DNA from: Moorena sp. SS36440bin_2
GTDB taxonomy: Bacteria > Cyanobacteriota > Cyanobacteriia > Cyanobacteriales > Coleofasciculaceae
Reading direction: 5' to 3'
NCBI GenBank assembly: GCA_011524395.1
Contig: WTKN01000435.1
Location: 1 to 64,000 of the forward strand
DNA length: 64,000 nucleotides
In this document: piece after piece, positions 9,170-45,151 of the stretch
Position numbering within the stretch: position 1 is the first letter of the stretch
How the letters are laid out: the number at the start of each line of letters is the position of its first letter
Notes under the pieces: generated by a model
Told to the model about the DNA's origin: nothing
Databases searched by the model: none
Seen by the model: the letters and a program-made list of their open reading frames with translations, nothing else
Program-made: the position numbers and the translations under genes

Positions 9170-10141
9170 TTTTAGTATCGCTATTGGGGATTGGGAAAAT
9201 GTCAAGGAACTGAATATCCCCTATACGCTATAGGATTGAATTCCTGAGCAATATTAGTCTAACAAAAATGTTGTTGACTCTTGTAAGCTGTCGGGCATTT
9301 AAATTGGGATTTTTGAAGCCTAGACCTCTTACAGCAAGGCTTGTGAGCGATCAAAATAAATGCCGAACAGCTTAAGTAACCTGTAATAGTTTGCCCTAAG
9401 TACGCACAAAAAGTTCTTAAAAGCAACCTTGAGACCAGGATCAAAGAGTTAACTATATAAGCTTGCCCGAATATGGACTAATAAATTATAGAGATGGAAG
9501 TAATGCAAGTCCATGTACATCTTTCTATCGAAGTTAACCCTAAGTTTCGAGTTTATAACCCAGTCAAACATTAAAGATATGTCTTCTATATATCTCAGAA
9601 AATAATTCCAGCAACTTCGCTAGCTAGAGACTGCCTAGGCTTGGGACTAAAAGCTATGGGGGTTTGTACCGTTTGCGGTGGGTCTATCGAAGTTATTAAT
9701 AAGTACATCGAAGACCAAAAGCGCCAGTAAGTTGTTCTATTTGAGTAGTTAACTTTAGTCCCAACAAACAAATATAAGGGCTACCAATTCACCCCAAAAA
9801 ATCGCCAATTTATAGTGTCCATTCAGATAAATCCTGTTTGTTTCAGAGGTTGTATTTAATGTATCTACAAGAGTCAAAATTTAAGAGGTAAAATTTAAGC
9901 TTTATTATTTTAGTTATCTTATTTGTCCTTCCTCGAAATCATACAATACCGATGCTACCGGAGTTGATATTACCCCTTACAGGACTTCCTCAGTAACTCT
10001 ACCTGTAGGGGCACTAAGCGTACTTATAGCTGATAGCGTTTGGTTCCCAGTTTTGTGTAAGTCCTGCCGTCAGTTAATTGACCAACAGTATAAAACAAGA
10101 CATGGCTATATATCTTGAGTCAATAGACAAGGGTCCTATAG
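9170..10141. other. 972-base intergenic region with micro-ORF candidates
   Basis: This long AT-rich region has no ORF above 60 codons that I believe. It does contain a pair of short in-frame ORFs (9494-9730, listed separately). A GC-richer part near 9970-10070 reads acaggacttcctcag and later gtaagtcctg, which look like paired ends of a dispersed repeat. A promoter for scpA presumably lies in the last 100 bases, but no clear boxes stand out. Confidence 0.35.
9494..9730 (+). other. Two consecutive in-frame micro-ORFs split by one stop
   Basis: From an ATG at 9494 the frame encodes 26 residues (MEVMQVHVHLSIEVNPKFRV, then YNPVKH) and stops at 9572-9574. The same frame then stays open to 9730, reading RYVFYISQKIIPATSLARDC, LGLGLKAMGVCTVCGGSIEV and INKYIEDQKRQ. 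The second part contains an ATG at 9656 and a CxxC pair (CTVC). Protein-like composition on both sides of the stop suggests either a small gene broken by a nonsense mutation or two chance ORFs. I do not recognise a family. Confidence 0.25.
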
Positions 10142-14859: not shown

Positions 14860-16158
14860 TCACCCATTTAGGTAATCAACACCCATCTGTTCACACAAAT
14901 CTGTCAACGCATTAATAGTAGCAATGACTTCTGAATGGTCAAGGGAGTCATTGCTCTGAGATGTATTTTGAGACTCTGGTGTAGGATCAGCTAAGTGCGA
15001 TTGGCCGTAGGCCAATCGCAATGGTGTATTTTCTTCTGACAATCCTATCCCCCAGGATTGAGGCAACTCTCCTGTTGACCAATCCATTGGTGCTTCTTGC
15101 TTAAAATCTGATTGGCCTTTGGCCACGCTACGCGATTGGCCTTTGGCCACGCTACGCGAACGCTCAGACACTGTCTCAGTCATAGTCACAGAGTTTTTGG
15201 GCAATAAGGTTTCCGGATGTAATTGAAACTTATCCTTATCCTCAAGTTCAACCTGTACATCCGTTGGTTGTTGTGAGGAAGGCCATAGGCTTGAAGCTTC
15301 TCGCCCTAACTGCTGAGCTAGACGATTTACAAAGGCAGCAAACAACATTTCTCCCTGGATGCCTAAGCTGTGCATTTTTTCAAGTTCCTGAGATAAAGAC
15401 TCTTGGTAACCTTGAAGATCTCTGTGTAGGGTCTCAAAAATCAATCGCTGGTTAACATCTATATTCTGTATGAGTTGATCAGATTGTTTTTGAAGCTGCT
15501 GTAGTTGCTCAATGACCTGTTGTCTTTGGACTACGGCAACAATCTCATCCTGATTTGAAGGCAATCGGTTGATTGAGTCGTCACTAGTGGGATTCTTTTT
15601 TAACTGAGCTTCCCAATTCGCTAAAATTTGAGATAGCTTTTGCGTCAAGCTTTCGACAAGGCGGTTGATTAGCCCTTGTGAGAAGTAGTCTGAAGCAAAC
15701 TGCACATTTGCAGTTTGTTGTTTGGTATAGTAATCCAGCTGCTGCTTGGTACTCTCCAAATGCTGAATTTCTCGTACTAGAGACTCTCGCTGTTGCTGTA
15801 GAGCTTCCAACTCTACCTGCAATGGTTTTGTCAAATCGGTACGTACAAGATTCATTTCTTGAGTAACCGCTTGCAGGATTTGCTGCACTCCCTCCTGAAC
15901 AGATGTGGTTACTCCTGTGTTAGATGGGGTGACTGTAGTAGTTGTCTTGTCCGATTCTACCCCTAGTTTTTGCTCTTGGGAAACTAGGTAGCTACGAACT
16001 TTCCGCAAAACCTGGTGTGCAGCCGCTAGGTCACCAGACTTGAACCATGGTAAAGGAAAGTCAGGCTTATGGAGGATGTGGTCAATATCAGCAATCAGAG
16101 ATTGAATGTCGGTTTGAGCAGTCACTTTGAAACCCTTGACGAGAACAAATTGAGTCAT
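14860..16158 (-). CDS. Coiled-coil protein of unknown function with in-frame repeats
   Basis: The 432-residue protein has a short N-terminal domain (FVLVKGFKVTAQTDIQSLIADIDHILHKPDFPLPWFKSGD). A long coiled coil spans about 85-285, rich in Gln, Leu and Glu (VELEALQQQRESLVREIQHL; QQLQKQSDQLIQNIDVNQRL). A low-complexity Ser/Gln C-terminal part includes SRSVAKGQ repeated exactly in tandem. Those repeats come from two perfect 24-base copies of a genomic repeat at 15110-15157, inserted in frame. A signal peptide and membrane helix are absent, so it is probably a cytoplasmic structural or scaffold protein. I do not know its function. Confidence 0.7.
   Translation of the reverse strand: MTQFVLVKGFKVTAQTDIQSLIADIDHILHKPDFPLPWFKSGDLAAAHQVLRKVRSYLVSQEQKLGVESDKTTTTVTPSNTGVTTSVQEGVQQILQAVTQEMNLVRTDLTKPLQVELEALQQQRESLVREIQHLESTKQQLDYYTKQQTANVQFASDYFSQGLINRLVESLTQKLSQILANWEAQLKKNPTSDDSINRLPSNQDEIVAVVQRQQVIEQLQQLQKQSDQLIQNIDVNQRLIFETLHRDLQGYQESLSQELEKMHSLGIQGEMLFAAFVNRLAQQLGREASSLWPSSQQPTDVQVELEDKDKFQLHPETLLPKNSVTMTETVSERSRSVAKGQSRSVAKGQSDFKQEAPMDWSTGELPQSWGIGLSEENTPLRLAYGQSHLADPTPESQNTSQSNDSLDHSEVIATINALTDLCEQMGVDYLNG
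15110..15157. repeat. Tandem 24-bp genomic repeat inside a coding region
   Basis: Two adjacent, identical 24-base units begin GATTGGCCTTTGGCCACGCT and end ACGC. Each contains the palindrome TTGGCCTTTGGCCA-like core. The unit length is a multiple of three, so it adds eight residues per copy without breaking the frame. A related but shorter palindrome (ttggccgtaggccaa) lies at 15001-15016 in the same gene, and further family members lie at about 32.4 kb and 44.9 kb. Confidence 0.85.
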
Positions 16159-32384: not shown

Positions 32385-32583
32385 TTGAACGCGCAAGCGT
32401 GGGCTGTTGGCCAAGGTTAGACGGTTAATGGTTGAAGATTAGACGGTTGAACGCGCAAGCGTGGCCGAACGCGCACGCGTGGCCTAAAGGCCAAAAGGCC
32501 AAGGTTGAAGATTAGAGCCTTAACAATTAAAACCTGGATTGATAACATTCAACATTCAACCTGCAACCTTCAACCTTCAACCT
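32385..32583. repeat. Cluster of palindromic and AAC-rich intergenic repeats
   Basis: This spacer contains three copies of GAACGCGCAAGCGTGG-like units (gaacgcgcaagcgtggg at about 32389, gaacgcgcaagcgtggc at 32450, and gaacgcgcacgcgtggc at 32467). They are joined to the palindrome tggcctaaaggcca/aaaggccaa and the string ggttgaagattag. The right end has a run of aacattcaacctgcaacctt variants. Similar words occur inside pbpC near 39.2 kb and in the coiled-coil gene at 15.1 kb. Confidence 0.75.
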
Positions 32584-41901: not shown

Positions 41902-44900
41902 TCAACCATAAGGATTGCCGACTCTCGACACACTACGCACTAGCTTTTGCTGATCCTGTTTTTGTTTTTCATCCCCACTATCATTAATAATTACTAGGAT
42001 AGTAGAAATCTGATTAACATCAGAAGCATCAGGACAAGAAATAATACATAGATTCACACTATGTTCTGCTTGAGTATTATGAGATACTAAGGTTTGAGCT
42101 GAATAATCTTGCCGACGTTCTTGTTCACTCTTGGCCGCTAATGCTACATCAAACCATTGGGAGAAATTCCCATTTTTAATGTGGACCAACTCCGGTAAAG
42201 ACTTTTGCTCAATATCTTTCAAACCAATGAAATCCTTAGCATGATCATTGGCAAGGATAATCTGACCGGTTTTATTGGTAAAAATTACACCACTAGATAC
42301 ATTAAAGACCAAATCTCGCTGCTCTAGCTGTTGTTGCTTGACTTTACTAAATAGCTTGGCATTTTGGAGCGCTACACCCGCTTGAATATTAAATGCTTCC
42401 ATCAAGTCTTGATCCCTGCGATCAAAACTTGCCTTCCAGCAATCGGGAGGGTTAGGCCAATCGGCGGGATTGTATGGGGGAAAATTTCCCTGCTTCTTTT
42501 TATTGACTAATTGGGTAACAGCAATTAATTGATTATCGGCATTAAACACAGGCATCCCTAACAAACTACAGGTGCGATAACCGGTTTGACTATCAGTTTG
42601 TTTGGCAGTTTCTGAATTGGGATGGTCATAGAGATCAAAAGGAATTATCAATGGCTGTTTAGTGGTAACAACTTGACCAGCAAAGCCAGCTCCTTTGGGA
42701 ATCCGAATTTCTTTTAATGTGCCATCAGCAACCGTAATTTTTGTCCATAATTCATCCTGTTCCTCATCTAACATCCAGACTGTACTGCGATCAGCAGACA
42801 TTAGCTCTTGAGCCTGATTCATCACTTTATTCAAAGTTTCTTCTAGATCCAAGCTACTTTTACCCAGAGATTGTGTCGCATTTATCAATGCTGAAGCTAT
42901 TCGTTGTTTCTGAGCTGCTTTATAAAATAACCGAGAGGATTTAAGAATCATTTGAATCGAGCGGGCGAATTGTGCAAAAAGTTTTTCATCCTCTGGTGTA
43001 AAGCCTTTGGCATCAATTTTATCAGCTAAGGGCCCGTCTAAAACTAGTGGTTGTTTTAACTTATTTAGTAATTGGACAACAGCCACTAAATCTCCTTGTT
43101 CATTTAGTAAGGGTAAAGCCAGCATGGTATAAGTACGGTATCCAGTTTTGTTATCCCATTCCTTCGCAGTATTAGAACGGGTATCGTCATATAAATCGTA
43201 AGGAATATTGACAGTTTTCTTAGTTTGAGCAACATAACCAGCAATCCCTTTATCCGCAGGCACCCGAATCTCTTCTGAGTCTCCTCCTTCTCCCTTTGCC
43301 ACAATTGACCAGAGTTCATTTTTGGCTTCATCTAATAAAAAAATAGTCGTGCGGTCTGCCTTTAGTATCTCCCCAGTTTTGAAAGTAATAGACTTTAACA
43401 TTTCATTGAAAATCGAATCAAACCCTTCTCGGTCTAGCAGAGTATCCATCATGGATAAGGTTTGATTAAAAACTCCTAAGTCTAATTCAAGGTTGGAAAC
43501 AATATGTTTAAAACTTTCTGGGGTCAGGTGTTGAAGAGACTCATAGATAGTTTCCTTAGTCGTAGCCGCTAAGGCTGGATTCAGTTTACCTTGTCGTCTA
43601 GCTTCTGAATACCGTTGAATTTCGTCTAACGCCTTTTTAAATTCTCGCTTTTCCCATTCTTGGCTAGTGGTCAAAAACTGATAATCTTGATGAGTTAAGC
43701 TTTTCCCAAGCGCCCATCTTAATGCATTCTGTAACTTTTGTCCTCGCATAAGACAGGATTTATCCTGAAAATCGGAGTCTAACCAAGCAGCAATTTCATT
43801 ACTATATGGTCGCAAATTTGCTAATTCTTTATCTACCCAATTTTGGTTAAAAACAGCTTGATAAATACGGTTATAAATTATTAATTTTCCTTGATTTTCA
43901 ACCACTAATCCCGATAGCCGCAATTCTATTTGCTCAAAACTGTTATCAGAAACAATTTCTCCTTGTTGGAGAATTTCCTGATACAATCCCAGTAATAGCC
44001 CAACCCGTTGCTGATTCTTAAGAAGACGATCGCGAATAGTTTTAAGATGCTCCGGATTATCATGGGATTTCCAATCATCAATCACTTGCGATCGCACTAA
44101 TTGATCAACCCACCCTACCTCACCACCTGTTGGGATCGTAGATACAGAATCCAACAGGATTTTACAAAGCTTTTGGGTCAAAAAAGGTTGACCTCCACTC
44201 CAGTACAATACCTGTTTCAGGACATCCTGGGGATTACTAATTTTTTCTTGTAATCCTTGCGCTAATCCCTGGGCTTCCTGCAACTGAAAGCCATATAGCT
44301 GAATCGCCTGACCAATATTAAAGGGTGTGCGTTTTTTATCTTGAATTAAATCTGATGGTGTGGCTACTCCAAGTAGCGCAAACGTAAGGCGTTGGTAGTC
44401 TGACTTATCCACACGTTGGTTATAGCAGGCGCGAATAAAGGCGAAAAAATCATCAGTGGGGAAATCGAGGCTAAGAACGCTATCAATTTCATCAATAAAA
44501 ATTACAATATTTTGAGTAACTTGCTGGAGCAAAACCTCTTCAAGAAATTCTCTCAATCGCCGCACCGCAAATATCATTGCTCGCTCGCGCCACCAAGTGC
44601 GTAAATTAATATCTAGCTCAAAGTCTCTAGCCAGAGAGCGGACAATATTGGCATACCATTGATCGAGAGTAACATGCTGAGTACCATCCATGGATAAATC
44701 AATTACTGCACAGGCAACCCCCTCTGCTTCAAGCCTGCGCATTACTTGCACTCGTAAGCTAGATTTTCCAGTCTGTCTTGAATTCAATACATAACAAAAC
44801 TGTCCAGCCTTTAATCCTTCATATAAATCATTATCTGCTTGTCGCTTCACATAGGTAAGAGCATCTGCTGGTAAAGTCCCTGAGTATATATATTCGTAGG

Positions 44901-44904
44901 TCAT
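41902..44904 (-). CDS. AAA-like ATPase-GAF-GAF-PAS signalling protein, output domain missing
   Basis: The 1000-residue protein starts with an AAA-like ATPase (AAA_35 type: [20 protein letters not shown], Walker [10 protein letters not shown] at 41-49, Walker [14 protein letters not shown] near 120). Two GAF domains follow, at about 495-660 ([20 protein letters not shown]) and 690-850 ([20 protein letters not shown]), both with the NKxGYRTxxLLxxP signature. A PAS domain lies near 870-975. Relatives of this architecture usually continue into an adenylate/guanylate cyclase; here the chain ends after [20 protein letters not shown] plus [11 protein letters not shown] chose the ATG at 44902-44904; the frame is open to 44970, but the extra residues come from a repeat palindrome. 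Confidence 0.85.
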
Positions 44905-45151
44905 TTTATTTGTTAACTGTTGTTCGCGTAGGGTGGCCTTTTGGCCAAGGTTGACAGTTCCCTTTGGCATTACTGAAGGGTAGGTTGACCGTTGTTCGCC
45001 TTTGGCATTCGGTATAGAGTAGGTTTAAGATTTAAAGTTATATGAATACAGAATGTTTTAACTATTTATAAAGTCTGAACTGACCCACTCAGGATTCAGG
45101 TTCAATCCCCTGGCCAAGGCGAAGCTTCATCGCTAGCCAACGCCCTTCGGG
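44905..45151. repeat. Spacer with genome-type palindromic repeats
   Basis: The left end holds gttcgcgtagggtggccttttggccaagg (palindromic TTGGCC core) at about 44921-44950. The right end holds ctggccaaggcgaagcttcatcgctagccaac and gcccttcgggc. The last repeat runs into the neighbouring gene and encodes its C-terminus. No gene lies between. Confidence 0.7.

Follow-up and report, generated by a model that had tools for sequence, protein, structure and literature searches.

Within a 64,000-nt stretch of the Moorena sp. SS36440bin_2 genome (the window), one protein gene carries the same 24 bases twice in succession and in frame, which raises the question if a mobile repeat is adding new protein sequence here or if ordinary coding sequence was merely duplicated in place. 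The two copies of GATTGGCCTTTGGCCACGCTACGC are identical, and no such pair arose in 100 dinucleotide shuffles. Read on the coding (minus) strand, they give SRSVAKGQSRSVAKGQ, at residues 334 and 342 of the host protein, for which neither a Pfam match nor an NCBIfam match near the cut-off was found. The first-pass annotation, which had reported two identical in-frame copies, was correct in this respect: they are exact and lie in the tail of the 432-aa ORF. The 24-base repeat is real, although its natural phase is shifted by 3 bases relative to that annotation, to 15113-15160. The genome is a 441-contig draft, in which ORFs were called mechanically and without a gene finder, and a single assembly is therefore the only source for the two-unit array.

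Table 1. Repeat units and other features of the window
Feature	Position	Strand	Remarks
Host gene (ORF)	14860-16158	-	432-aa Gln-rich protein, putatively coiled-coil-like according to the first-pass annotation
Two exact 24-mers (15110-15133 and 15134-15157)	15110-15157	+	phase of the first-pass annotation; same array as units 1 and 2
Repeat unit 1	15137-15160	-	TT leader and 5-3-5 hairpin, loop AAA; GCG just before
Repeat unit 2	15113-15136	-	AT leader, hairpin identical to unit 1; ATCAG just after
Site 2	14997-15019		perfect palindrome GCGATTGGCCGTAGGCCAATCGC; 15-base hairpin form splitting HIP1 (GCG/ATCGC)
Degenerate relative	32388-32413	+	adjoins GGTTGAA-type repeats
Second degenerate relative	32450-32511	+	composite
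25-base relative	44923-44947	+	4-base loop, leader with 1 mismatch
IS200-type transposase remnant	9365-9718	+	degenerate, five internal stops

Structure and dispersal of the unit

When up to 3 mismatches were allowed, the 24-mer matched the window at the two copies in the host gene and nowhere else, and the three exact GGCCNNNGGCC cores of the window all lie within the same gene. The shorter relative noted earlier is a 15-base form about 90 bases away. The supposed spacer copies at 32.4 and 44.9 kb hold up as degenerate relatives, but not as copies of the 24-mer. Those at 32388-32511 stand between GGTTGAA-type repeats; the one at 44923-44947 falls at codon 8 of ORF 41902-44970 (minus strand) in its longest form and therefore probably lies upstream of the true start. 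In the whole genome, the exact 24-mer occurs 7 times and GGCCNNNGGCCACGCTACGC with at most one mismatch 264 times, compared with 0 for the reversed pattern.

The description as a simple palindrome has to be revised, as the element consists of an 11-base leader (TTCGCGTAGCG in the window) followed by a 13-base 5-3-5 hairpin. The leader itself, of the form (T/A)TCGCGTAGCG, comprises two bases and a 3-3-3 hairpin, and folding predicted the same architecture for all of the four typical units that were folded: two free bases, the 3-3-3 hairpin and the 5-3-5 hairpin. In a 1.47-Mb sample from the genome of the window and three congeners (one largely masked set was left out), TCGCGTAGCG with at most one mismatch occurred 240 times. 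Of these 240 leaders, orthologous copies included, 83 were followed by a 13-mer that can fold as a 5-3-5 hairpin with at least 4 of its 5 pairs; a control 13-mer further on did so in 7 of the 240 cases. The stems differ in sequence (TGGCC/GGCCA, TGACC/GGTCA, GCTCG/CGAGC, GTTCC/GGAAC and others), and pairing is therefore what is kept. Units are 24 bases long in 54 of 107 cases and 25-27 bases, with longer loops, in the other 53. The unit can be translated without a stop in five of its six reading frames, the sixth being interrupted by TAG; as the commonest form has 24 bases and only one frame in six bears a stop, an insertion usually adds eight codons.

The GGCC-hairpin form GCGTAGCGTGGCCNNNGGCC was found in 167, 261, 239 and 179 exact copies in four genomes of the genus, including that of the window, and in none of the other 239 of the 243 genomes of the order (reversed control: 0). 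A wider range was seen when the pattern was relaxed to the leader, 13 free bases and ATC: the genome of the window has 70 occurrences, and a further 43 are spread over 30 of the 290 remaining genomes of the class (reversed pattern: 7 in all 291 genomes). Twenty-eight of these 43 matches, from 20 genomes, pair at 4-5 of 5 positions in the free 13-mer; when the 13-mers were shuffled, 0.9 matches on average and never more than 5 paired to this degree (2000 trials). The 15 unpaired matches may be due to chance. HIP1-flanked forms with a 10-18-base spacer occurred in 22 of 388 genomes, whereas the reversed control gave 0; the genome of the window accounts for 47 copies, and the remaining 21 genomes have 25 between them. 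Thirteen of these 25 measure 24 bases, and 11 of the 13 have at least 4 of 5 pairs. The leader is thus shared, though sparsely, by other cyanobacteria of the class, with hairpins that differ in sequence but are self-complementary. When eight unit-bearing ORFs from outside the genus were picked for a unit in a long frame, seven had a Pfam match, and the unit lay inside the best matched stretch in two of them (an ABC transporter and a HAD hydrolase).

Target sites and in-frame insertions

The preferred, though not exclusive, target of the unit is the cyanobacterial octamer HIP1, entered between bases 3 and 4 (GCG^ATCGC). Exact HIP1 halves (GCG and ATCGC) flank 13 of 111 distinct units, where base-word frequencies predict 0.0009. 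GCG precedes 26 of the 111 (0.8 expected) and ATC follows 39 (2.1 expected). The other 98 do not stand between perfect HIP1 halves; according to their flanks, which were read but not counted, units are also found in repeats that resemble GGTTGAA or GACGGCT, where a G precedes and an A follows them.

Presence and absence are seen most cleanly in a chemoreceptor of 1148 aa (Cache-HAMP-GAF-MCP): in the species of the window alone, GCG^ATCGC is interrupted at this very point by an additional 24 bases, without target duplication. All three congeners compared (G001, G002 and G003) have the empty site GATGCG^ATCGCATTT with HIP1 intact, and the eight residues are absent in all three other genera examined (G004, G008 and G009). 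More generally, we joined the flanks of 110 arrays and obtained 50 usable cross-species matches over the junction. Fourteen were gapless empty sites, two of which (u64 and u83) look doubtful, and for 10 of the 14 the site is in an ORF encoding 120 aa or more. In the remaining 36 comparisons no gapless empty site was seen, part of these being filled in both species. Of seven unit-bearing ORFs that were scanned, four encode TnpB proteins or fragments, two encode NACHT proteins, one of which also has HEAT repeats, and one encodes a HAD hydrolase; several of the TnpB empty-site comparisons are probably between paralogues.

In-frame units were seen in four TnpB (IS605 OrfB) genes (L089:9533-10408, L117:12854-14116, L115:14325-15560 and L100:319-855), with one unit directly preceding and another directly following a DHNAA motif near the C-terminal end. 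In HAD hydrolases of another genus (L199) and of Moorena G001 (L147:16971-17837), units directly follow the FEAQG motif, and the Moorena insertion is absent in G000 and G002. Perhaps a single loop of this gene has received insertions repeatedly.

Genes contain fewer units than expected from their length: only 19 of 107 fall within conserved ORFs, although these make up 47% of the sample. Among the 24-base units 13 of 54 are in genes, versus 6 of 53 of those with 25-27 bases, a difference that is suggestive only (Fisher p 0.13); four of these six longer units have no homologue covering the unit. Considering indels of 9 to 150 bases, repeat-like ones were multiples of three in 8 of 8 cases in conserved ORFs versus 9 of 21 outside, where the eight coding indels represent only four sites, since the two sites of the host gene were counted against three species each. 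For other indels, among which the motif filter placed the chemoreceptor unit, the numbers were 38 of 41 in coding sequence and 100 of 259 outside. As other coding indels behave alike, the result reflects selection on frame and not a property of the element.

The host gene has two such sites (Table 1). A homologue of its product was found in 39 of the 57 genomes searched (that of the window, its genus, family and order), with 87-90% identity over the best segment in M. bouillonii PNG, Moorena sp. SIO3H5 and SIO3I8, and 49% in a Symploca MAG. Site 1 contains two units in the window, one each in PNG (L042), G001 (L043) and SIO3I8 (L044), and none in SIO3H5 (L038), which reads GAGGGATCAG at the position where the others have GAGCG-unit-ATCAG (GACCG in SIO3I8). 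None of the four congeners aligned has the second unit. At site 2, the window and SIO3H5 share the 15-base form inside HIP1, and the other three have two 24-base units that carry different hairpins. All length differences at both sites are multiples of three and in frame. The unrooted pattern at 80 sites groups the window with SIO3H5 against the rest, and thus the shortest history is a one-unit ancestor at site 1, loss in SIO3H5 and duplication in the window. From these alignments, loss in SIO3H5 seems as likely as an ancestral zero-unit state, and the ancestor may have had no unit.

Residues 1 to about 300 of the host protein are well conserved in other genera; the tail, residues 301-432, in which both 24-mers fall, aligns weakly there. 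The alignment stops before the first unit (residue 334) at 21 of 27 other-genus loci; six reach or pass this residue, and none of the six contains the unit-coded peptide. Three of the 27 align to residue 412 or beyond (composition adjustment off). The 27 loci include three leader-like 10-mers, none followed by a GGCC hairpin. A short C-terminal motif is common to the host protein and one outgroup homologue (G009, L047). Since the 26 homologues L045-L070 from outside the genus nevertheless have open frames of 684-1763 aa, as compared with 432 aa in the window, the protein of Moorena may have been shortened internally. SIO3H5 has an in-frame tandem duplication of its own upstream of site 1 (SSQQPTDV twice), and the SIO3I8 C-terminus, VDTPRSLDAGIS, is unlike that of the other congeners (L044 / L039, 3' end of the gene). 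The tail is fast-changing.

Between orthologous hairpins, some loops are exact reverse complements of each other: TTT/AAA at site 1 and TAC/GTA at site 2, which exchanges Phe for Lys and Tyr for Val, respectively. Among 192 kept hairpins with 3-base loops, only two have no loop base in common, and in each of the two the change is an exact reverse complement; a third exact flip is seen at site 2 between the window and SIO3H5. With loops of up to 12 bases on 5-bp stems, four comparisons at three places are exact reverse complements, versus 44 others with at least three differences, and flips are thus rare. Such exact changes may have come about when template switching inverted the loop, or when other copies served as donors in gene conversion.

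Origin of the copies and candidate movers

The unit is dispersed, has a favoured target, is precisely present or absent between species, adds codons in frame and covaries in structure. We consider it very probable that it is a very small mobile hairpin element that prefers HIP1, makes no target duplication and, when in genes, usually adds eight codons. Under this model, a unit would insert preferentially between the third and fourth base of a HIP1-like site without duplicating the target; within the genus, one unit would have entered a GCG^ATC site of the host gene and would then have been tandemly duplicated in the species of the window, and the nearby HIP1 would have taken up hairpins as well. 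Movement may proceed as a single-stranded DNA or RNA hairpin; an RNA intermediate is a suggestion made for the small dispersed repeats (SDRs) of cyanobacteria. A broader proposal is a class-wide 24-base family, its leader kept in sequence and its hairpin in structure, which generates in-frame insertions at HIP1 and switches residues by loop flips. We put this forward tentatively, its chances being slightly short of even.

As to the mover, transposases of the IS200/IS605 type act on single-stranded hairpins and make no target duplication, just as the chemoreceptor site has none. The genome has 14 matches to the Y1 profile, 8 of them intact, and a resident TnpA is a possible candidate mover. Of the 14 TnpA loci that were read, however, no more than 3 contain an exact GGCCNNNGGCC core, and on balance we regard mobilization by these enzymes as rather unlikely.

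Still less probable is that the unit belongs to the GTAG-type REPs and depends on a RAYT transposase for its movement. GTAG does stand 5' of the hairpin in most units, and PMC3733652 reports such REPs in cyanobacteria and within genes; some families have two unpaired bases that separate the tag from the stem, and some are inserted within palindromes. Against this, the GTAG tag is not terminal, because the inserted unit starts 5 bases before it, and leaders with GAAG also occur. All 8 intact Y1 proteins are IS200 TnpA and none is a RAYT, the best RAYT score being 37.5 bits at a cut-off of 80; this covers the Y1-profile matches of the draft genome, and a RAYT outside the profile or the draft may exist.

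Local slippage, i.e. tandem duplication of ordinary coding sequence with no dispersed element behind it, is improbable to a high degree as the sole cause, and was rejected as such: hundreds of copies of this unit are scattered over the genome, it is present or absent at HIP1 in the unrelated chemoreceptor gene, and arrays with two different hairpins occur. It is kept for the second copy of the window, which is best explained as a tandem duplication on the following grounds. Duplicating a congener-like single unit (TCGCG...CCAA) by exactly 24 bases yields the sequence of the window, including the order of TT before AT, and the second unit of arrays begins with AT in 9 of 9 cases. Chance palindromes were likewise rejected.

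That the peptide is ancestral coding sequence under protein-level selection, as its in-frame retention in one or two units at site 1 in 4 of the 5 genus genomes might suggest, is hardly credible and was rejected, the unit being absent in SIO3H5, the peptide missing from all 6 other-genus loci aligned over site 1 (the other 21 of 27 end earlier) and the residues flipping with the hairpin loop (Phe/Lys).

The first-pass annotation had spoken of a mobile or slippage-prone repeat that is making new protein sequence, an idea that carriage of the same peptide in distant species would contradict; at the 27 other-genus loci no such carriage was found. Mobility is supported by the dispersal throughout the genome, by presence and absence at the same codon among five genomes, by the chemoreceptor and by the gapless empty sites, and a tendency to slippage by the second copy. 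New protein sequence does arise, eight residues with each in-frame unit, and the peptide is probably tolerated rather than useful.

Significance and relation to known repeats

The locus offers a clean system in which to watch very small mobile DNA add protein sequence, because in sister species a site for the unit may be empty, occupied or duplicated. The favoured target is defined as well, namely HIP1, about whose own function there is continuing debate. A leader that is conserved and a hairpin that is free in sequence yet paired point to a mover that reads structure, which makes the search for it testable. If the class-wide family is real, 24-base units would be a recurrent source of in-frame protein insertions in cyanobacteria.

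For comparison we drew on excerpts of PMC4390886, PMC3116915, PMC3733652, PMC6513891 and PMC2884548. In the literature on repeats in Moorea/Moorena, covered mostly outside subscription journals, no description of the unit was found. The closest known kind is the small dispersed repeats of cyanobacteria, in particular SDR5, compared here by description and not by sequence. SDR5 of Nostoc-type cyanobacteria, treated by Elhai et al. in 2008, reportedly has 21-27 bases, forms hairpins with compensatory changes and lies in part in heptamer repeats. The Moorena unit agrees with this in size (24 nt in half of the cases, otherwise 25, 26 or 27) and in the compensatory changes of its stem. SDR5 inserts precisely between the third and fourth nucleotides of HIP1, according to Elhai (2015, PMC4390886), and so do the 13 perfectly flanked Moorena units. 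The GGCC-hairpin form is confined to Moorena among the 243 genomes of the order. In-frame presence and absence in genes is documented here for the Moorena unit.

Intragenic copies of GTAG REPs are known (PMC3733652, in part), and REPINs have been reported in Nostoc punctiforme (PMC3116915, in part). The Moorena unit shares with them a short hairpin with GTAG nearby, but differs in that GTAG is not terminal, in its HIP1 target and in that no RAYT is among the 8 intact Y1 proteins. Rickettsia palindromic elements, as excerpted from PMC3733652, are palindromic repeats that lie in frame in protein genes and have a CGTC end. In-frame intragenic insertion is common to both, whereas the Moorena unit, TTCGCGTAGCG...GGCCA, lacks CGTC at either end, has another sequence and is targeted to HIP1.
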